Origin: Kutzneria chonburiensis
GTDB taxonomy: Bacteria > Actinomycetota > Actinomycetes > Mycobacteriales > Pseudonocardiaceae
Assembly (NCBI RefSeq): GCF_028622115.1
Contig: NZ_CP097263.1
Location: 7,440,001 to 7,504,000 of the forward strand
Reading direction: 5' to 3'
Length of the DNA: 64,000 nt
A model generated the notes under the pieces. It did no database searches and was not told the DNA's origin. It saw nothing but the letters and a program-made list of their open reading frames with translations. Shown in pieces: positions 27,109-39,298 of the stretch. The position numbers and the translations under genes are program-made. The number at the start of each line of letters is the position of its first letter. Positions within the stretch are counted from its first letter, which is position 1.

Positions 27109-28437
27109 GTGCTGGCCGTGGGGGAGCCGGGCGAGGACACGCAGCCGATCAAACGACATGAGTCCCGGCTGCCGGACGACCACCCGCTCTATCGACCGCG
27201 CCACGGCAAGCAGCGGTTCGCGCTGGTCTGCGCAGTGGTCTTCCTGATGACGCCGTTGTTCGGCCTGACCCTTTTCGGCACGCCGCCGTCGATCGAGAAC
27301 CGGGCGCTGCACCCGTTCCCCAGCGTCGGCGAGGGCTGGTCCTTCTTCACCGACCTCGGCCCATGGGCGACCGACCATCTGTCCTTCCGCGAGCAGGCGA
27401 TCAACCTGACCGACGGCATCAGCCGGTCCCTGTTCGGCGAGCCGCCCAACCAGGAGAGCAGCGACCCGTCCCAGCCGACCAGCGGCCCCATCCCGGTCGG
27501 CCCGCCGCCCACGGTCAATCCGCCCATCCCGGGCTCGCCGGCCCTGGACAACGAGCCGCCGCCGGTTGCCGGCTACCCGCGGGTCATCGAGGGCAAGAAC
27601 AACTGGCTGTACTTCGGCTACGACATGCAGGGCAAGTGCCAACCCCAGCAGCGCCTCGAGGACGTCATCGCCAACCTGGTGAAGCTGCGGAACGCAGTGC
27701 AGCAGTCGGGCCGCAAGTTCGTGCTGGTGGTGCCGCCGGACAAGTCGACGAGCGTGCCGCAGTACCTGCCCGACCAGTACGCGGGCAAGTCCTGCGCCAT
27801 CGCCCACAGCGAGCGGTTCTGGTCGCTGGTCACGGCCGAGGCCGGCGCCACCGACCTGCGGTCGAACCTGAACCGCATCGGTCCGTCGGCCTACTTCCCG
27901 CAGGACACGCACTGGACCTACGCCGGCGGACTGATCATGACCAGGGCCATCGCCGGAGCCATCCACCCCGGCATCGACCTGCCCTGGCGGGTCACCGACG
28001 GCGCCAAGAGCGAAGGCGTCGCCGACCTGCCGCCGATGATCGCCAAGACCGGCACGGACGTGAGCAAGACCTACCGGCTCGCCCCGGACGGCCACGTCGA
28101 CCGCACCCAGCAGGGGCCGTTCGACCTGCGGGACACCGTCAGCTTCAGCACATCGAAGCCGGTGAACGGCATGGTCGCCGGCAAGACGGCGATGGTGACG
28201 GACTCGTTCACCAACTACGCGGCGCCGTTCCTCGCGGCCACCTTCACCGACATCACCCTCACGCCAAGCGCGGTCGTGCAGCAGAACCCGGGCGCGGAGG
28301 CGCAGCGCATGGTGGACAGCGACACGGTCGTGGTGGAGGTCGTGGAGCGCAATCTGTCATCGGGCATCAGCCCGATGACCCAACCCGCGGTGCTGGACCC
28401 GATCATCCAGCAGCTGGCCGCGCATCCCAAACGCTGA
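27109..28437 (+). CDS. AlgJ/AlgX-like SGNH-hydrolase protein (putative polysaccharide O-acetyltransferase)
   Basis: A 442-residue protein with one transmembrane helix (about 36-56) and a large outer domain. Within it, Asp266 and His268 in QDTHWTYAGG match the DxHW motif of AlgX/AlgJ, and Ser366 in VTDSF is a candidate nucleophile. Those proteins move acetyl groups onto alginate outside the cell. A Pro-rich linker (about 110-155) precedes the catalytic region. GTG starts at 27109 or 27118 are both possible. It heads an operon with two further glycan genes. Confidence 0.72.
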   Translation: MLAVGEPGEDTQPIKRHESRLPDDHPLYRPRHGKQRFALVCAVVFLMTPLFGLTLFGTPPSIENRALHPFPSVGEGWSFFTDLGPWATDHLSFREQAINLTDGISRSLFGEPPNQESSDPSQPTSGPIPVGPPPTVNPPIPGSPALDNEPPPVAGYPRVIEGKNNWLYFGYDMQGKCQPQQRLEDVIANLVKLRNAVQQSGRKFVLVVPPDKSTSVPQYLPDQYAGKSCAIAHSERFWSLVTAEAGATDLRSNLNRIGPSAYFPQDTHWTYAGGLIMTRAIAGAIHPGIDLPWRVTDGAKSEGVADLPPMIAKTGTDVSKTYRLAPDGHVDRTQQGPFDLRDTVSFSTSKPVNGMVAGKTAMVTDSFTNYAAPFLAATFTDITLTPSAVVQQNPGAEAQRMVDSDTVVVEVVERNLSSGISPMTQPAVLDPIIQQLAAHPKR

Positions 28438-28453
28438 AAGGCCACTCGGTACA

Positions 28454-29467
28454 GTGCCCGACGTGCGTGCAGAGTCCCGACCGACTTCCGTCGGCGCCAT
28501 CGCCCTATGGGGCAGCAGTGACCTGCCGGGGCTCGGCGACCAGGTCGTGCCCCGGGTGCTGGAACGGGAGCTGCTGACCCGGCTGCCGGGCTGGCGCGTC
28601 ACGCACTACGCCCCGTTGGGCTGGAGCCGTCCCTCGGTGTCCGACGGTGGTCTGATCGCGGAGCCGCTGGGCGAATACACGCCCGAGCGCCTGCGAGAGA
28701 TCGCCGACTCGGTGCACCTGAGCATCCTGTGCGCGACCTTTTCCCGTGGCACGAGCCTTGAAGCGTTGTACGGGACTGCGGCCGCCGAGCCGTTCTTCGC
28801 CATGGACCTGCCGGCTGTCACGGTCAATCTGGCGGTGTTGGCCGATGGGTTGGTGCCGGCGGAAATCCTTGCCGCCCGGACACTTCAGCTCCGGCAGCTC
28901 GGTGAGCTGCCGGAGGACGACTACGTCATCGGCAAGGGCGGTATCGAGCTGCCGGCCGATGTGGTCGTCGAAGACAAGCTGGCGGCGATCGCTTCGGCGA
29001 AGAAGGTCGTGACCGACGACCCGTACGTCGCGGCTGCCGCTACGGCGTTGGGCACGAAGGTCCAGGGGCCGGCCGTCGACGTGAAGACCCTGGCGGACAA
29101 GGCCTGCAAGGAGATCGACGGGTTCGCCGCAGCAGCCGAGCAGGCGCTGGCCGAGCGGGACGGCGACCTGACCCGGCGGATCGCCGACCTCGCCGCCGAG
29201 AACGCCGCGCTCCGACATGCCCATGCACGGCTGCGCCAGCGCATGCTGCACGAGCGGCAGATCCTGGTGGACCGGCTGATGGCCGCGGACGACTCCGAGG
29301 CCGTCGAGCGGCTGCGGGCCGAGCTGGCCCACGAGCGCCACCTGCACCGCGAGGCGCTGGCCCGTGCGGCCGAGGACCACCATGAGCTCAACGCGTTGCG
29401 CCAGACCAAGTTGCTGCGCTGGTCGCAGCCGCTCCGCGACACCTACGGGAAGATCAGGCGGGCATGA
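28454..29467 (+). CDS. Unknown glycan-locus protein with coiled-coil C-terminus
   Basis: A 337-residue protein. The N-terminal 200 residues look like an alpha/beta domain (VGAIALWGSSDLPGLGDQVV, HLSILCATFSRG) with faint similarity to polysaccharide pyruvyl-transferase-type proteins; this is a guess. Residues about 210-320 form a charged coiled coil (ADLAAENAALRHAHARLRQR), and the tail LLRWSQPLRDTYGKIRR resembles ends of actinobacterial glycosyltransferases. It lies 16 nt after the AlgJ-like gene and overlaps the next gene by 4 nt. Confidence 0.65.
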   Translation: MPDVRAESRPTSVGAIALWGSSDLPGLGDQVVPRVLERELLTRLPGWRVTHYAPLGWSRPSVSDGGLIAEPLGEYTPERLREIADSVHLSILCATFSRGTSLEALYGTAAAEPFFAMDLPAVTVNLAVLADGLVPAEILAARTLQLRQLGELPEDDYVIGKGGIELPADVVVEDKLAAIASAKKVVTDDPYVAAAATALGTKVQGPAVDVKTLADKACKEIDGFAAAAEQALAERDGDLTRRIADLAAENAALRHAHARLRQRMLHERQILVDRLMAADDSEAVERLRAELAHERHLHREALARAAEDHHELNALRQTKLLRWSQPLRDTYGKIRRA

Positions 29468-31383
29468 GGATCACGTTCGTCCTGGTCTCCTACGGAGGCC
29501 GCGAGCTCGTCGTGGAGTGCCTGGAGAAGCTGGCCGAGCACACGCCGCAGCCGTACGAGGTGATCGTCGCCGACAGCGCGTCCCCGGACGGCACGGGCGA
29601 GTGGCTGGCGGCCAACCTCACCGGCGCGACCGTGCTGCGTATGGACCGCAACCTGGGCTTCGGCGCCGGCTGCAACCTGGCCGTGCGGCACGCGAAGACC
29701 GAGCTGGTGTGCTTCCTCAACGCCGATGTCGAGGTGACCGAGGGCTGGCTGGAGCCGCTGCTGGAGGTGCTCGACACACGCCCCGAGGTGGCGGCGGTCG
29801 CGCCGGTCATGCTCAACACCGACGGCACCGTGCAGGAAGCCGGCAGCATCATCGGCGGCGACGGCTGGTGCCGGGCCTGGGACGGTCCGCAGCACGAGAT
29901 GTTCGCCCGCCAGGTGGACTACGCGTCGGCGGCCTGCCTGCTCATGCGGCGCAGCGTGTTCCACCAGGCCGGCGGCTTCAGCGCGGACTACGAGATCGCC
30001 TATTTCGAGGACGTCGACCTCCAGGTCCAGCTCAAGTCGCTGGGCTGGACGGTGTGGGTGGATCCACGCTCGACGGTCGTGCACGCCCGACACGGCAGCA
30101 GCACCACCGACCGGGCGATGGAGCTGATGCAGCTCAACCACGGCGTTTTTCTCCGCCGCTGGCCGCAGGAGCTGGTCGACCGGCCGAACGTCGTGGGCTT
30201 GGACGAGCACGAGCACCACAAGTACTGGCTGCGCGACCGCAACGCCGGCTACCGGGTGCTGCTGATCGACGACCGGGTGCCGCAGGCCGACCGCGGCCGT
30301 GGCGACCCCCGCACGATGGCCGTTGTCGACGCCTGGCGGGAGGCCGACCCGAACGCCCGTGTCACCTTCTACGCGTACTCGCCCGAGCGGGCCGAGGAAT
30401 ACGCGCCGGCCTTGCAGGCCAAGGGAATCGAGGTCGTCTGGGGCGTCACCGACGCGCGGCGCTGGTCGGCCGATCGGGCCGGCCTGTACGACGTGGTCGT
30501 GGTGTTCCGGCCGCACAACTTCGCGCAGGTCGGCCTCACGATCTCCCAGTCGCAGCCGCAGGCGGTCAAGGTCTACGACTCCGAGGCGCTGTTCTACCGA
30601 CGTCCCGGCCAGTACTTCGAGACGGCGCTGACCTCGGCCGAGCGCCGCCGGCTGGCGATCGAGGCGCGGCACCTACGTGACCAGGAGGAACACGCCTTCA
30701 ACTGGGCCGATGTGGCGGTCTGCGTGAGCGAGGAGGAGGCCCGCTGGGCCCGTGGCATCGCGCCGGGCACCTCCGTGCACGTCGCCTGCTACCCGGCCAA
30801 CCTGCCCGGCGAGGTCCCTGGCCTCGAGGGCCGGGAAGGGCTGGCGTTCTTCGGCGGTTTCGACAACACGCCGCGCACACCGAACGAGTTCGCCGTGCTG
30901 GAGTTGGTCGACGACGTGCTGCCGGAGCTGTCCCGGCGGCATCCCGGACTGCTGCTGCGGGTCATCGGCGCCGACCCGTCGCCGGCGGTACGGGCGTTGG
31001 CCCGTAAGGACATCGAGGTGCTGGGCAAGGTGCCGGACCCGGGTGTCTGGCTGTCCAAAGCCCGGCTGCACGTGGTGCCGATGCGCTACGGCGCCGGTGT
31101 GAAGATCAAGTTCGTCGACTCGATGGCTGCCGGGCTGCCGTTCGTCACCACACCGGTGGGCGGCGAAGGGCTACACCTCGGCTGGATGGCCCGGCACCTG
31201 GTCGGCGAGTCGCCGGCCGAGATCGTCGAGCTGTGCCACCGCATGCTCACCGACGACGTGCTCTGGACCGAGATCCAGCAGGCGCTGGTCGAGGTGTGTC
31301 GGACCAAGTTCTCCGCCGCCGCCTTCCGCACCGAGATGGAGGGCGTGATCGCCGACTGCGGAGCGCTTCCTGTGTTCAGTTAG
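29464..31383 (+). CDS. Two-domain glycosyltransferase (GT2-GT4 fusion)
   Basis: A 639-residue cytoplasmic enzyme. Residues 1-230 are a GT2 rhamnosyl-type domain: TFVLVSYGGRELV, FLNADVEV as the metal-binding acidic motif, and ACLLMRRSVFHQAGGF then YFEDVDLQVQL. Residues about 300-630 are a GT4/GT1-type GT-B domain with GFDNTPRTPNEFAVL, VLGKVPDPGVWLSKARLHVVP and YGAGVKIKFVDSMAAGLPFV. Two transferases in one chain suggest sequential addition of two sugars. Its TAG stop overlaps the convergent TAA by two bases, with no terminator space between. Confidence 0.85.
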   Translation: MRITFVLVSYGGRELVVECLEKLAEHTPQPYEVIVADSASPDGTGEWLAANLTGATVLRMDRNLGFGAGCNLAVRHAKTELVCFLNADVEVTEGWLEPLLEVLDTRPEVAAVAPVMLNTDGTVQEAGSIIGGDGWCRAWDGPQHEMFARQVDYASAACLLMRRSVFHQAGGFSADYEIAYFEDVDLQVQLKSLGWTVWVDPRSTVVHARHGSSTTDRAMELMQLNHGVFLRRWPQELVDRPNVVGLDEHEHHKYWLRDRNAGYRVLLIDDRVPQADRGRGDPRTMAVVDAWREADPNARVTFYAYSPERAEEYAPALQAKGIEVVWGVTDARRWSADRAGLYDVVVVFRPHNFAQVGLTISQSQPQAVKVYDSEALFYRRPGQYFETALTSAERRRLAIEARHLRDQEEHAFNWADVAVCVSEEEARWARGIAPGTSVHVACYPANLPGEVPGLEGREGLAFFGGFDNTPRTPNEFAVLELVDDVLPELSRRHPGLLLRVIGADPSPAVRALARKDIEVLGKVPDPGVWLSKARLHVVPMRYGAGVKIKFVDSMAAGLPFVTTPVGGEGLHLGWMARHLVGESPAEIVELCHRMLTDDVLWTEIQQALVEVCRTKFSAAAFRTEMEGVIADCGALPVFS

Positions 31384-34300
31384 TCGATGCTCGGCTGTGC
31401 CAGCGGCGGGATCTTGCCTCGGGCCTTGCGCAGCGCGTGCCAGCGCAGGGCCGCGCTGAGCAGGAACCGTTCCGCGCCGGCAGTTTCCTCCCGGGCGCGG
31501 CCGGCCAGCTTCAGCAGCGGCGTGCGGCGGTTCTCGACCTCGCTCAGCTCGGTCAGCCGCTCGCGGTCCTCGGCCTTCATGCCTTCCACGCGCAGCAGCA
31601 GCGTCGTCGCGAACTGGGCGACCCGACGCAGCTCGTACTCGGCGACAGCCTCCAGCTGAGCCTCCTGCTCGGCGGTCAGCACTTCGTTGCGCCCCAGGGC
31701 CAACAACGCCAGGCCGATCTTGCCGGGCAGCCCTTTGTCCAGGCGCTCCTGGCGATGTCCGGTCACCGCCTGCCCGTGCTGTCGGTACGAATACAGGGCG
31801 CGGTCAACGAAGGCCAGCTTGCTGTCGGCCAGCGCCGTCGCCGCAATCCACTGGTCATGGAAGGCTGACGGGGTGCCCGGAGGGAACGGGAGCACCAGCT
31901 CACGCAGCGTCTTGCCGTCCACCATGCTCGCCGCGCCGGTCACGGTGTTGAGCAGCAGCAACGCTTCCAGGTCGGTCCACTGGTTGCGGCGGTCCTGCCA
32001 GAACGAGTCGGCGAAGACGGTGTCCTGCTCGTCGATCAGCCGCATGTCCGAGTACGCGAGACCGTGCTCGCGCAGCGCGAGCAGCAGCGTCACCAGCTTG
32101 TCCGGGTCCCACACGTCATCTTGGTCGGCCAGGGCGACGGCGTGCGCGTCGGCCGGGGCGGCGGCCAGCGCGCGTTCGAAGTTGCCGTAGAAGCCGACGT
32201 TGTCCTCGTGCGCCACCAGCACGAAGCGGTCGTCACCGGTGATCAGCCGGCGGATCACCGCGAGCGACTCCGGGCCCGAGTTGTCGTCGCTGAGCACGCA
32301 CACCCAGTTGTCATGGGTCTGGGCTCGAATCGAATCCAGCTGTGCGGCAAGGAAAGCCGGATCGGGCCGGTAGGTCGCCATGCAGATGGCGACCTTCGGG
32401 CCCTTGCCGGGCCACGACACCGTCACCGGGTCCAAATTGGACGGGACCAGGCGCAGCGGCGGAAGTTCGCGTCGCAGCAGGGTTCCATCGGCCAGCAGAA
32501 CGCCGAGCGCCAGCGGCTTGTCCATCGGCGCGGCGATCCGCGTCAGCGGCAGTCGGACCCGGAAACCACAGCCCTCGGGCGTACGAATCACCGACGGCCC
32601 CAGCGCGGCAACGACATCAGGCCGGGCGTGGCCCGTGCTCGCCACGTGCCACTCGCCCTCGAACAGCACCCGGACGTCCTTGACCGCGATGCCGGCGTTG
32701 ACCACCCAGCCGTCCAGATCGACGACCTGGCCCCGGCCGACCGCGATCGGCCGTTCCGGCACGTTCACCGAGTAGTGCAGCTCGGCCTCGCGCTTGGGTC
32801 GCGCCGACTTGCGCATCCGCGCCCCGAACACGCCGGCCAGCGGGCCTGAGCGCCGCAGCACGGCGTCACCCTCGTCCCCGGCCCGGCCCAGCGCGATGTC
32901 CCGTACGCCACGGGCGATCCGCGCCGACGGCCACAGGTAGCGGTGGGCCGCGCGCACGATCTTGGCGTTCTCCAACGCGTCCAGGCGAGCCCGGGTCTTG
33001 GCCAGGCGGTCGGCGACGTGCGCCGCCTGCTGCTCCAGCTGTGCGCTGCGCGCCTGCGCCGACTCCGCTTCCAGCGCGGCGTCGGCCAGTTCCGCGAACA
33101 CCATGCCCAGCCGCCGGTCCAGCCGCGCCGCCTCAGCGCGCGCGACGGACAGCTCCTGCTCGACGATGCTCAGCTGACCGGAGACCTCGTTGCCGCGACG
33201 GCGCTCGACCTCGGTGCGGTCGTTGGCGTCGACCAGCGCCGTTCGGTGCCGGTCGAGGTCCGCGTCGGCATCGCGGAGACTCTGCTCCAGGCCCTTGAGA
33301 TGGGTGGCGTCGGCGACGATCTGGTCCAGGCCGCCCTGGATCGTCCACAACGGATCAATACCCGGCTGGTCGACCCGGTCGTGCAGGGCCTTGCTGATCG
33401 TCGCCGCCGACGTGCCGGTGACCAGGGACTGGAGCTCACCCTCGGCGTCAAGCAGTTCGGACCACCGCTCGTCGGCCGCCGTGCTCAGTCCGACCAGCTC
33501 GGCCAGCGCGCGCAGCAGATCACGCTCGGTCGCTGCGCTGCCCCAGATGTGTGGCGCACCGCCGTCGTGGATGTCGTGCGCGAACTCCAGGAGCGACCGC
33601 AGCTGCACGAGCTCGGCGTCGACGCCGGTGCCGGCCAGCCACTCACGGTCCACGCGCTCGACGCCGGTCGCGGTCAGGATCAGGTTGCCCGGGTGCACGT
33701 CCAGGTGATCCGGCGGCAGCACCGCCACGCCATCGCGCCCCGGCAGATACGGGTGCCGCTCGTCGTCCGCGGTGAGCGGCCGCGCCTGTGCCAGCACGGT
33801 GTGCTGCCACAACGTGACAAGGCGGCGCAGCTCGGCCGAATCCCCGCCGCGCAAGGCATCCAGGAGCGCCGCGTCCAGCGGCCGACCGGCGAACCAGGGC
33901 TCCGTCGGCACCGTCTGCTGCCGCAGCCAAGCACGCCCGGTCGTGCCCTCGGATTTCGACGTCAGGACAAGATCGCGACCCAGCCCACGGGTGCGCCGCC
34001 ATTCCGGTCGGCGACCACCGCTGACCAACCAGGCCAACGACGGGTCGAGCAGCTCGTCCAGCGGCTCCTCGGACGCGGAAGCCAGTATCAGGAACGACGG
34101 CGCGACCTCGACGCCGAAGCCCTCGGCCACCGCCGCCCGATACAGCTCTCGCCCCGGGGCCACGGCCCGGCCGCCGCCGAACGCGCCGCGCAGCGGGTCG
34201 CGGACCAGCTTCTCCACCAGCTCGGGAGCGTCCGGGCGGTCGAACAACGCCGTATTCAGCACGACGCGCGGCAGCTTGTAGTCCGGGTACGGCAGCAGCC

Positions 34301-34964
34301 AGCGCTGCGCCGTCAGACCCGCGTCGGCCAACAGCGACGCCAGCTTCTGCCGCGTCCACGTGCGGGGCTGTGGCTCGCCGCCCGGGTAGTCGGCGATGCC
34401 CACCCACGACTTGCCGTGATGATCCTCCGGGCGGCCCAGCAGATAGCCGACGCCGAGCTGGTTCTCGATCGCCAGCGCCACCACGCCGCGTTCGGACAGC
34501 GCTTGCCGGACGCCGTCCAGCAGCCGCTCCGGGCCGGCGCCGAAGAGCGTGCTGTACTCCAGCACCCCGCACAACACCGCGAGGTCGATCCCGTTGGCAG
34601 CAGCCAGCTCCTGCTCGATCTCGCCCCGCACGATCCGTACGTTGGGCAGGTCCCGGCAGCGCTCGGACGCCGCGGCCGCGCGATCCTCCGTGCCCTCGAT
34701 GCCGAGCACGTCCAGACCGGCTTCGCCCAGCGCGCGGGTCAGAACTCCGGTGCCACAACCCAGATCCACCGCGCGCAGCTCCGGCCGCAGCCGCAGCGGC
34801 GCCAACAGAGCCAGCCGCTGCGGCGAGAAGTGATAGGCCGTCTCCCAGGAATCGACCTTCGCCGCCAGCTCCGTCGACCCCGCGCTGATGTCCTCGGCGG
34901 CCTTCAGCGCCAGCAGGACCTCGGACTCCGCGCCGTCGGCGTAGCCGACCTCACTCGACGTCAC
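31380..34964 (-). CDS. Methyltransferase / kinase-like / coiled-coil / GT2 fusion protein
   Basis: A 1194-residue multi-domain protein. Residues 40-240: SAM-dependent methyltransferase (VDLGCGTGV, 66-74). Residues about 300-480: APH-type kinase fold with catalytic loop HLDVHPGN (420-427) and metal site VDREW (438-442). Residues about 550-670: long coiled coil. Residues about 725-845: beta-sandwich-like domain. Residues 857-1080: GT2 glycosyltransferase (KVAICMATYRPD, then ADQDDVW, 946-952). The order methyltransferase-kinase-coiled coil equals WbdD, which caps O-antigen chains and measures their length. The C-terminal 110 residues are helical. Its ATG overlaps the upstream gene by 4 nt. Confidence 0.82.
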   Translation of the reverse strand: MTSSEVGYADGAESEVLLALKAAEDISAGSTELAAKVDSWETAYHFSPQRLALLAPLRLRPELRAVDLGCGTGVLTRALGEAGLDVLGIEGTEDRAAAASERCRDLPNVRIVRGEIEQELAAANGIDLAVLCGVLEYSTLFGAGPERLLDGVRQALSERGVVALAIENQLGVGYLLGRPEDHHGKSWVGIADYPGGEPQPRTWTRQKLASLLADAGLTAQRWLLPYPDYKLPRVVLNTALFDRPDAPELVEKLVRDPLRGAFGGGRAVAPGRELYRAAVAEGFGVEVAPSFLILASASEEPLDELLDPSLAWLVSGGRRPEWRRTRGLGRDLVLTSKSEGTTGRAWLRQQTVPTEPWFAGRPLDAALLDALRGGDSAELRRLVTLWQHTVLAQARPLTADDERHPYLPGRDGVAVLPPDHLDVHPGNLILTATGVERVDREWLAGTGVDAELVQLRSLLEFAHDIHDGGAPHIWGSAATERDLLRALAELVGLSTAADERWSELLDAEGELQSLVTGTSAATISKALHDRVDQPGIDPLWTIQGGLDQIVADATHLKGLEQSLRDADADLDRHRTALVDANDRTEVERRRGNEVSGQLSIVEQELSVARAEAARLDRRLGMVFAELADAALEAESAQARSAQLEQQAAHVADRLAKTRARLDALENAKIVRAAHRYLWPSARIARGVRDIALGRAGDEGDAVLRRSGPLAGVFGARMRKSARPKREAELHYSVNVPERPIAVGRGQVVDLDGWVVNAGIAVKDVRVLFEGEWHVASTGHARPDVVAALGPSVIRTPEGCGFRVRLPLTRIAAPMDKPLALGVLLADGTLLRRELPPLRLVPSNLDPVTVSWPGKGPKVAICMATYRPDPAFLAAQLDSIRAQTHDNWVCVLSDDNSGPESLAVIRRLITGDDRFVLVAHEDNVGFYGNFERALAAAPADAHAVALADQDDVWDPDKLVTLLLALREHGLAYSDMRLIDEQDTVFADSFWQDRRNQWTDLEALLLLNTVTGAASMVDGKTLRELVLPFPPGTPSAFHDQWIAATALADSKLAFVDRALYSYRQHGQAVTGHRQERLDKGLPGKIGLALLALGRNEVLTAEQEAQLEAVAEYELRRVAQFATTLLLRVEGMKAEDRERLTELSEVENRRTPLLKLAGRAREETAGAERFLLSAALRWHALRKARGKIPPLAQPSID

Positions 34965-36184
34965 GACGCCGGCGCGAACTTCTGCGTCTCGGCCTTGAGC
35001 AGGTCACGGAACGCCTTCTCCGCGGCCGCCGAATCCGGGCTGTAGGCCTCGACCCGGATCACGTAGCCGTTGGAGATGTAGTGCGCGCGGAACGCGGTCT
35101 GGCCGTCCGGACCGCTGGCGCTGAGCGAGCGGGCGGTGACGCCGGCCGGGATGTTCGTGGTCAGCTGCTGGTAGTTGGCCTCGGCGTAGAGCTTGTCGAT
35201 CGCGTTGAACGCGGCCTTCGGGTCCCCGCCGGTCTTGAACGCCCAGATGCCCTCGTGCATGTTCGGGGCCTCGGTGACCACCGCGGCCACCCGGCTCACG
35301 CCGTTGTTCTTGAGCAGCTGGACTTCCTGGTCGGTCGGCGCGTGGTTGGTCACCGCGTCGGCGATCGGGTAGTCGACGTTGTAGATCTGCTTGCCCGGCA
35401 CCTGCACGAACGGGCCGGCCGGCAGCGGCGGCAGCGGCGGGGTGGTGGTCGTCGGGGCCGCCTTGGACGACGAGGTGCCGGTCGTCGTGGTGGTGGCGTT
35501 GTTCTCCTTGCCGGAGCCGGCGGTGAAGAAGTAGATGCCGCCGGCCAGGCCCAGCACCAGCACCACGGCCACCGAGATCGCGATGATCTTGCCGGTCTTG
35601 TTGCCGCGCTTGCCGCTGTCGAACACCTCGGGGCCCTGCAGCGGCCAGCTCGCCTTGCCGAAGTCCGGCGGCAGCTCGTTGCTCCACGGCGCCGAGCCGT
35701 ACTCCTGCGGCTGCTGGCCGAAGTCCGACTGCTGCGGCATCGGCTGCCACGGCGCCGACGCCTGCGGCCCCATGTTCTGCTGGCCGGGCATGAAGCCGCC
35801 GGTGTTCGGCACCACCTGGGTGCGCTCCGCGCTGTCACCACCGGTGTTGCGGACCACCTGCGTGCGCTCGGCGCTGTCGCCGGCCGGCGGGTCGGTGATC
35901 GGGCGCAGCACCTGCGTGCTCTCCGACGACGTCTCCGGCGGCGGCTGGTTCTGGTTCTGCTGGCTGGCCGGCGGCTGCCAGCGGAACGGCGCGCCGAACG
36001 GGCTTGCCGGCTGCTGCTGCTCGGCCGGTGGCTGCTGCGGCTGGCCACCGGGCGGCGTCTGGGGCTGCTGCTGCCCCTGGGCCACGCCCAGCAGCTGGTC
36101 GCGACGTAGGCGGTAGTCCTCTGGCGTCACCCGGCCCTGGGCCAGCTCGCTGTCGAGCTGCTGCAGCTCCTCTTGCCAGGACAT
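34961..36184 (-). CDS. Membrane-anchored protein with WQEEL/SHOCT-like N-terminus (paralogue A)
   Basis: A 407-residue protein. Residues 1-32 (MSWQEELQQLDSELAQGRVT, then PEDYRLRRDQLL) form a short SHOCT-like helical motif. A long Pro/Gln-rich cytoplasmic stretch carries three TQV motifs, two of them in a tandem repeat (GDSAERTQVV twice). One transmembrane helix (about 203-224) and a Thr-rich linker lead to an outer alpha/beta domain. The ATG at 36184 follows GGAGG; a 13-codon longer start lacks such a site. It overlaps the 1194-residue fusion gene by 4 nt and is a paralogue of 38022-39137. Confidence 0.78.
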   Translation of the reverse strand: MSWQEELQQLDSELAQGRVTPEDYRLRRDQLLGVAQGQQQPQTPPGGQPQQPPAEQQQPASPFGAPFRWQPPASQQNQNQPPPETSSESTQVLRPITDPPAGDSAERTQVVRNTGGDSAERTQVVPNTGGFMPGQQNMGPQASAPWQPMPQQSDFGQQPQEYGSAPWSNELPPDFGKASWPLQGPEVFDSGKRGNKTGKIIAISVAVVLVLGLAGGIYFFTAGSGKENNATTTTTGTSSSKAAPTTTTPPLPPLPAGPFVQVPGKQIYNVDYPIADAVTNHAPTDQEVQLLKNNGVSRVAAVVTEAPNMHEGIWAFKTGGDPKAAFNAIDKLYAEANYQQLTTNIPAGVTARSLSASGPDGQTAFRAHYISNGYVIRVEAYSPDSAAAEKAFRDLLKAETQKFAPAS

Positions 36185-36269
36185 CTGACGAACCTCCGCA
36201 TCACGTCCGCGTACCGGGGCCATTGTGCCGAAGCACCCACGGCCCCCGTACCCGACTGGGTCGTTGAGA

Positions 36270-38021: not shown

Positions 38022-39137
38022 TCAGCTCGCCGGCGCCTTCGTCAACAGTGAGGTGGCGACGTTCTTCATCGCGGCCATGACCGCCGACTCGTCCACCGGC
38101 TGAGTCTGGGCGACCGCCACCATCACCGCGTTCAGCCCGGAAGCGTAAATGGCGCGGTACTGCACCTCTTTGTCGGTGACCAGCTTGCGCACCTGGACCT
38201 GGCTCGGCAGGCCGTCCACCTTGCCCGGCTGCAACCCGGCCAGGTCCTGGTACTCCACCAGGTCGGAGCTCACTTTCGCACCCGCGGCCTGATCACCGGT
38301 GACAAAGGCGAAGACCGCGTAGTTCAGGTGGCCGTCCACCGATCCGGTGAACGTGATCTGGGTCACCTTGTCGGCCTCGAGGAAGTCGCCCTCCCTGGCG
38401 TCGAACAGGTTACGGTTCTGCGCCTCGAAGACCGACAGCTCGGCCCGGTCCAGCCGGGCCGTGCCCGGCAGCTGCGGCAGGTCGTCCAGGTGCAGTGCCT
38501 TCGTCGGGGGTGTGGTGGACGACGTCGCCGTCGGCTGCTGCGGACGCACGCCGAACCACCAGCCGCCGGCCAACAGCAGCAGGAGCACCACCACGACGAC
38601 GACCAGCAACGCCGCCCGGGACTTCTTCTTGGTGGCGCGGGTGCTGAAGACGTCGTCGGAGATCGGCGGCGTGGGTGCGTACTGCGGCGCCGGGGCCTGC
38701 TGCTCGCCGCCCGGTTGATACATCGGCAGCTCGGTGACCGGCGACCATGACGGCTGCTGGGTCGGCATCACCGGTTGGTACTGCGGCGCCGGTGGGATCG
38801 GGTTCGGCCCGGACGGCATCTGCTGCATCGCCGAGGCGGCGAACGGCTGAGGCGGCGTGCTTGTTGGGGCTTGCTGCTGGATCGGCTGGCTCGGGGGCTG
38901 CTGGGCGGTCGGGATCGGCGGCAGGGGCTGTTGGATGGGCGACGGCGGCGGCTGGACGTGCGGGATCTGCGGCTGGGCCGGCGGCTCGGGACGCTGGGGA
39001 GCTACCTGGCCGGCCGGCGGGAAGCCGCCGGAGGCGGCGGCCAGCAGGTTGTCACGGCGGCGGCGGTATTCGGCCGGGGTGATGCCCTTGTCGGCGAGCT
39101 CGGCGTCCAGTGCGCGCAGTTCCTCCTGCCAGGTCAC
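38022..39137 (-). CDS. Membrane-anchored protein with WQEEL/SHOCT-like N-terminus (paralogue B)
   Basis: A 371-residue protein of the same design as 34961-36184: N-terminal MTWQEELRALDAELADKGIT with PAEYRRRRDNLL, a Pro/Gln-rich cytoplasmic linker, one transmembrane helix (about 180-203, flanked by KKKSR), a Thr-rich spacer and an outer domain. The GTG at 39137 is preferred because GGAGG lies 6 nt upstream and its product aligns residue for residue with paralogue A; the ATG two codons earlier abuts GGAGG. It begins the minus-strand glycan group. Confidence 0.76.
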   Translation of the reverse strand: MTWQEELRALDAELADKGITPAEYRRRRDNLLAAASGGFPPAGQVAPQRPEPPAQPQIPHVQPPPSPIQQPLPPIPTAQQPPSQPIQQQAPTSTPPQPFAASAMQQMPSGPNPIPPAPQYQPVMPTQQPSWSPVTELPMYQPGGEQQAPAPQYAPTPPISDDVFSTRATKKKSRAALLVVVVVVLLLLLAGGWWFGVRPQQPTATSSTTPPTKALHLDDLPQLPGTARLDRAELSVFEAQNRNLFDAREGDFLEADKVTQITFTGSVDGHLNYAVFAFVTGDQAAGAKVSSDLVEYQDLAGLQPGKVDGLPSQVQVRKLVTDKEVQYRAIYASGLNAVMVAVAQTQPVDESAVMAAMKNVATSLLTKAPAS

Positions 39138-39298
39138 GATCATCCTCCAGGGGTCGCGGCACGTGTCCGGCCTTGCTACCAGGCGTGTCCGCCCGTCACA
39201 ACATAGTGAACCGGACCGATGCGGACCCGCCGTTCGGGCGTCATGCCCGGGCGACAAATGGATGGGGCGGTTGGCGGACCGTGGCTAAGGTCGGCCGG

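Follow-up and report, generated by a model that had tools for sequence, protein, structure and literature searches.

A minus-strand gene of Kutzneria chonburiensis encodes a 1194-aa protein in which a methyltransferase, a kinase, a coil, a beta domain, and a family 2 glycosyltransferase (GT2) follow one another along one chain. The gene lies in a 64,000-nt stretch of the chromosome (contig NZ_CP097263.1, positions 7,440,001 to 7,504,000), hereafter the window. We consider it likely that the protein is an actinobacterial methyltransferase-kinase (MT-kinase) capping enzyme of the ORF6^O7 family, fused via the coil and the beta domain to one chain-extending GT2. Judging from its family membership, it most likely caps with phosphate plus methyl. 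A first-pass annotation of the same DNA had proposed a glycosyltransferase-fused glycan terminator made up of methyltransferase, kinase, and coiled coil, and this is still the best reading. The open reading frame (ORF) is gene-like, since its GC content is 0.89 at third codon positions versus 0.48 at second positions, and the genome, a single 10.4-Mb contig, carries one full-length copy.

Methyltransferase and kinase of the ORF6^O7 type

Proteins of this kind are already known from Klebsiella. ORF6 of K. pneumoniae O7 (ORF6^O7) is a characterized chain terminator with a methyltransferase, an APH-like kinase, a carbohydrate-binding module (CBM), a coiled coil, and two GT2 modules, while WbbB of K. 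pneumoniae O12 both builds and caps (PMC11231755; here and below, statements on published systems draw on parts of the cited papers). The first-pass annotation had called the five-part architecture undescribed. It is not unprecedented, because O7 ORF6 contains every type of part. Phosphorylation and partial methylation by ORF6^O7 were reported in vitro, together with a D441A knock-out (PMC11231755).

The N-terminal methyltransferase matched Pfam Methyltransf_12 at residues 66-162 (E = 1.7e-11), and its S-adenosylmethionine (SAM) motif was found where the first-pass annotation had read it. The predicted local distance difference test (pLDDT) score of the model was mostly 79-95, with residues 171-200 weak. 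We made the comparison with ORF6^O7 through a Pseudomonas plasmid protein (L110) as proxy and through published residue numbers. All six published SAM-site residues of ORF6^O7 (Y28, Y66, G91, G93, E112, and Y158; PMC11231755) occur in L110 at identical numbers, and Y8, Y44, G69, G71, E90, and Y137 of the window protein align with them. Via L110, the window protein and ORF6^O7 are thus alike in having an N-terminal methyltransferase and in its SAM-site residues.

No Pfam family matched the kinase region at E ≤ 1. Foldseek returned 96 matches to the kinase model at E ≤ 10 and none at E ≤ 0.001, and the top folds among 50 VIA-align rows were maltokinase, AmiN, choline kinase, and APH. ORF6^O7 also has an APH-like, AmiN-like kinase without family annotation, and it shares the catalytic Asp, as D422 of the window protein aligns with the Asp of L110 that corresponds to ORF6^O7 D441 (PMC11231755). 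Across 29 aligned sequences, the window included, D422 and N427 were invariant, D439 was present in 28 (Glu in Citrobacter), E441 in 27, W442 in 28, and R318 in 28 (Lys in one). The His of the HxD motif (H420) occurred in just 6. An intact HxDxxxxN loop and a metal-binding Asp had been annotated at first pass; the Asp, the Asn, and the metal-binding Asp are family-wide, and the His is not.

The rarity of this His, together with a model that had no recognizable alphaC helix and no evident beta3 Lys, could indicate that the kinase domain is an inactive scaffold between the methyltransferase and the coil. We regard this as very unlikely, given the near-complete conservation of D422, N427, and D439. 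Moreover, the ORF6^O7 kinase is active and needs the Asp that aligns with D422 (PMC11231755), and the Lcin_0519 family likewise lacks alphaC (PMC9758233).

A true WbdD-family enzyme, which is what the first-pass annotation had in mind, would have the methyltransferase, kinase, and coil in the order seen here and likely the same chemistry. WbdD has and needs the catalytic His of the HxD motif, a residue that is not a family feature in our alignment. When PDB sequences were searched with the kinase profile, there were four matches at E ≤ 5, none named as a kinase and none a WbdD chain (WbdD's presence in that set being unverified). The whole MT-kinase profile gave 254 matches at E ≤ 1, the best 60 of which all lay in the methyltransferase part. 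WbdD was also absent from the 50 VIA-align rows; these negatives from the profiles and VIA-align leave room for a remote tie. Escherichia coli O9a WbdD resembles the window protein in its methyltransferase, kinase, coiled coil, and, probably, methylphosphate cap, but its kinase is of the eukaryotic protein-kinase type and its chain contains no glycosyltransferase (PMC3482155). The ORF6^O7 authors likewise describe their kinase type as quite different from that of WbdD (PMC11231755). Because the window kinase resembles the APH-like ORF6^O7 type (PMC11231755) in both sequence and fold, we hold membership of the WbdD family to be extremely improbable.

Two further families were compared by their described traits only (PMC9758233). 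The Lcin_0519 family, for which the orders named are proteobacterial, is similar in combining methyltransferase and kinase, often with a coil, and its gene neighbors include glycan genes and Wzm/Wzt. The Lani_1194/NoeA methyltransferase-kinases, reported in Actinobacteria (Micromonosporales), seem to have the kinase first, because the Lys-72 equivalent is at residue 38, whereas the kinase of the window protein comes second.

Coil, beta domain, and a single GT2

Behind the kinase, the structure model contains helices at residues 546-581 and 590-665 in a block with pLDDT of 45-64. The hydrophobic periodicity of the coil was 3.50, a value reached by 0.007 of shuffles. Across 22 fused rows, this fraction was below 0.05 in 17 (window included) and 0.050 to 0.160 in the other five. 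The first-pass claim of a long coiled coil at about 550-670 is therefore supported by helices and periodicity, but continuity is not established, as the helices are separate and their pLDDT is low. With this uncertainty, the coil occupies the same position as in ORF6^O7, after the MT-kinase and ahead of the glycosyltransferase part (PMC11231755).

The coil region was present in all 22 fused rows and ranged from 100 to 150 aa (125 in the window), and by analogy it may act as a ruler. We dropped the idea of a ruler quantized in heptads, because length differences from the window were multiples of 7 in 10 of the 22 rows (window included). Alternatively, the MT-kinase might decorate internal or side-chain sugars with a methylphosphate ornament, or modify a secreted glycolipid or small molecule, with a coil that only oligomerizes and with neither termination nor ruler. 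The variable coil length favors this alternative, as does the thinking that Lani_1194/NoeA enzymes decorate secreted factors (PMC9758233). It is opposed by the retention of the coil region in every fused row and by ORF6^O7, the characterized member of the MT-kinase family, which is a terminator (PMC11231755). Overall, we consider decoration rather unlikely and prefer end-capping.

The beta domain reported at first pass was recovered as strands in the model, and it matched no Pfam family. The GT2 was likewise confirmed, with ADQDDVW at residues 946-952. Pfam Glycos_transf_2 (PF00535) matched above its cut-off at residues 860-977 (E = 5e-16), and Foldseek matched the CgT, SpsA, WrtF, RmlT, and TarP structures (E = 6e-11 to about 1e-9). 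The domain has the GT-A fold with DXD motif of a GT2, and Pfam found a single GT2 stretch in the protein. ORF6^O7 similarly has an Ig/beta domain and a C-terminal GT2 with DXDD, but it contains two GT2 modules, and its Ig/CBM-like domain lies between kinase and coil, whereas the beta domain of the window protein follows the coil (PMC11231755). Two GT2 modules are not required of the family, because some ORF6^O7 orthologues end after the coil; other terminators lack a CBM, which the authors doubt is essential (PMC11231755). WbbB is alike in joining polymerizing and terminating modules and a coil in one chain, but it terminates with a Kdo transferase instead of an MT-kinase (PMC11231755).

We propose a mechanism in which a membrane-linked glycan would be extended at the cytoplasmic face by the GT2 domain, probably with the enzyme encoded by a convergent GT2-GT4 gene. 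The APH-like kinase would phosphorylate the non-reducing terminal sugar from ATP, with D422 as the catalytic residue and N427 and D439 holding the metal. The methyltransferase would then methylate the terminal phosphate with SAM, and extension would stop. The coil would space the capping head from the GT2 base and, like the coils of WbdD and WbbB, may impose a minimum length. The domain composition, the conserved active-site residues, the family assignment by sequence, and the recurring gene neighbors are shown, while the glycan-end substrate, the order of phosphate and methyl transfer, the ruler role, the sugar, and the exporter are inferred. The first-pass annotation had suggested that the glycan could be built within one polypeptide. 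However, chain building probably takes more than one protein, because the window protein has a single GT2 and because GT2-GT4 homologues occurred within the flanks (about 10 kb) of 20 of the 22 named loci that we surveyed (L034-L055; 21 with the fusion plus L055, which lacks the MT-kinase).

Distribution and history of the fusion

We searched 297 genomes of the same taxonomic family, drawn evenly and including the window's own, at a cut-off of E ≤ 1e-20. Matches came from 37 genomes spread over 12 of 46 genera. In 30 of these, one ORF (L001, L005-L033) carried coil, beta domain, and GT2 behind the kinase, and the module order was the same in all 30 (five without the SAM motif). The 29 other fused ORFs were 45-86% identical to the window protein by BLAST, and the closest named relatives found were from Kutzneria species (84-86%). 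Most fused ORFs (25/30) aligned from query residue 13 or earlier. Five, all of genus g17 (L026-L030), lacked about residues 50-116, including the SAM motif, in frame. Two named Crossiella sp. records (L045 and L053) begin like the g17 ORFs, and both sets keep the kinase, coil, and GT2 despite loss of the SAM segment. An internal TGA in three genus-g21 homologues proved to be an artefact, the match merely extending beyond the true stop. No actinobacterial fusion of this kind was among the literature matches listed, in a search with subscription papers mostly outside its scope.

Six of the remaining seven genomes encode standalone MT-kinases (L086-L091), about 510-535 aa long with the start codons chosen here. 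That such enzymes occur without GT2 in the same taxonomic family speaks for decoration, as does the location of L086, the one checked for a GT4 neighbor, in a row of upstream-gene homologue, standalone MT-kinase, and GT4 protein. In the last genome, G056, the match was confined to residues 727-1173 and lay in a 606-aa frame like that of L055. In L055, a Pseudonocardiaceae metagenome-assembled genome, the ORF from 9962 encodes 606 aa of coil, beta domain, and GT2 without methyltransferase and kinase, and it follows a SHOCT-like gene.

A profile of the MT-kinase region (cut-off E ≤ 1e-15) matched 6 of 396 genomes in Actinomycetota (own included) and 4 of 398 in the phylum to which L059 belongs (its own genome counted). 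With coil and beta parts assigned by eye, relatives showed the orders MT-kinase-coil (L080, L081, L084, and Citrobacter L109), MT-kinase-beta-coil (L083), and MT-kinase-beta-coil-GT2-GT2 (L059 and L110). The L059 locus encodes an ORF6-like protein of 1369 aa and, after it, one of 534 aa whose match covers residues 827-1079 of the window protein (40% identity, E = 1e-55). The two halves of the window protein thus each have a homologous counterpart there, encoded by neighboring genes, with that of the GT2 half beside the ORF6-like gene. In a tree that was unrooted and drawn with a midpoint, the 14 fused rows used formed one group (100/100 support) and the six standalone MT-kinases another (100/99). 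Elsewhere, a 1786-aa protein (L085:7133-12490) joins an MT-kinase to WbsX and GT2 modules.

Export and gene neighborhood

Capped-end chain termination is known from Gram-negative polysaccharides exported by ABC transporters, in which the cap can double as an export signal read by the C-terminal domain of Wzt. This domain (Wzt_C, PF14524) was detected in 0 of 31 genomes, namely the window's own, 29 with the fusion, and G056 with the glycosyltransferase part. The Wzt_C model is able to detect the family, because the same search found it in 2 of 14 control genomes and because both plasmid relatives have Wzt_C transporters as neighbors (E = 2e-26 or better). The window had no PF01061 match and no adjacent Wzm/Wzt; the nearest PF01061 match, 3.7 kb past the window end, was rejected as an exporter beside the gene and looked drug-type by eye. 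PF01061 matched at 21 places in the genome, and we inspected the surroundings of three. One galactan locus (L111, genome positions 7558412-7570186) encodes UDP-galactopyranose mutase, GlfT1, Wzt, and Wzm above NCBIfam cut-offs, about 93-95 kb away from the gene; its ATPase (Wzt) had no Wzt_C at E ≤ 0.01. A link between this Wzm/Wzt and the 1194-aa protein is a guess.

The actinobacterial system thus differs from the ORF6^O7 type in that Wzm/Wzt genes are not adjacent and Wzt_C was not detected in its genome (PMC11231755). What is new is a Pseudonocardiaceae clade that has its own module order and a single GT2, conserves an overlapping gene upstream, and gave no Wzt_C match in 31 of 31 genomes. 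The Wzt_C result is also consistent with decoration. Under end-capping, the exporter would do without a cap reader of the Wzt_C type, since the searches detected none. It is possible, although we put this forward tentatively, that Pseudonocardiaceae turned a Gram-negative-type methylphosphate terminator into a stand-alone controller of wall-glycan length. One chain would build, measure, and cap, held at the membrane by the product of the overlapping upstream gene, and export would proceed without a cap-reading Wzt, perhaps via the reader-less galactan Wzm/Wzt; in Crossiella, the methyl step would have been lost, perhaps leaving the phosphate end bare. An actinobacterial clade with a glycosyltransferase-fused capping enzyme and no detectable Wzt_C would separate the length-control and export-licence roles of the cap, and would make that question testable. 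The capping enzyme would also suggest that Pseudonocardiaceae have a wall or surface glycan ending in methylphosphate, as yet undescribed.

Among the neighboring genes (Table 1), a homologue of the upstream gene, whose stop overlaps the start of the 1194-aa gene, lay ahead of the target in 20 of the 22 loci and was not found in the two Crossiella loci (L045 and L053). The upstream gene and another minus-strand gene at 38022-39257 share an N-terminal motif that we take to be SHOCT-like, without a Pfam hit. Most of the six standalone MT-kinases also had homologues of these genes a short way upstream.

Table 1. Features of the 1194-aa protein and its neighboring genes, in window coordinates
Feature	Residues	Position	Strand	Basis or remark
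Whole gene		31380..34964	-	GTG start, 1194 aa
Class I SAM methyltransferase domain	about 10-230	34275..34937	-	Pfam and model
SAM-binding motif VDLGCGTGV	66-74	34743..34769	-	Read in translation
APH-like kinase domain	about 285-530	33375..34112	-	
Kinase catalytic loop HLDVHPGN	420-427	33684..33707	-	29-row alignment
Metal-binding motif DREW	439-442	33639..33650	-	29-row alignment
Coiled-coil region	546-665	32970..33329	-	Model and periodicity; low pLDDT
Beta-sandwich-like domain	728-842	32439..32783	-	Model strands, block pLDDT 81-94
GT2 domain	855-1062	31779..32402	-	Pfam and Foldseek; DXDD at 947-950
C-terminal helical region	1082-1182	31419..31721	-	Structure model
Upstream gene		34961..36223	-	4-bp overlap with target start; single membrane-spanning stretch (by eye)
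Convergent GT2-GT4 gene		29464..31383	+	Tail overlaps target stop by 4 bp
Gene with C-terminal coil (by eye)		28454..29467	+	Neighbor of GT2-GT4 gene
AlgX/SGNH-hydrolase-like gene		27109..28437	+	Pfam ALGX, E = 4e-16

In several loci, the best match to the GT2-GT4 protein spanned its GT2 half only. The coil-bearing gene beside it also had flanking homologues at 20 of the 22 loci, and the same two loci, L042 (a 4-kb contig) and L047, were without homologues of both genes. By eye, the start of the coil-bearing gene's product resembles polysaccharide pyruvyltransferases, with no Pfam match to that family. Homologues of the AlgX/SGNH-hydrolase-like gene were present in 7 of the 22 loci.
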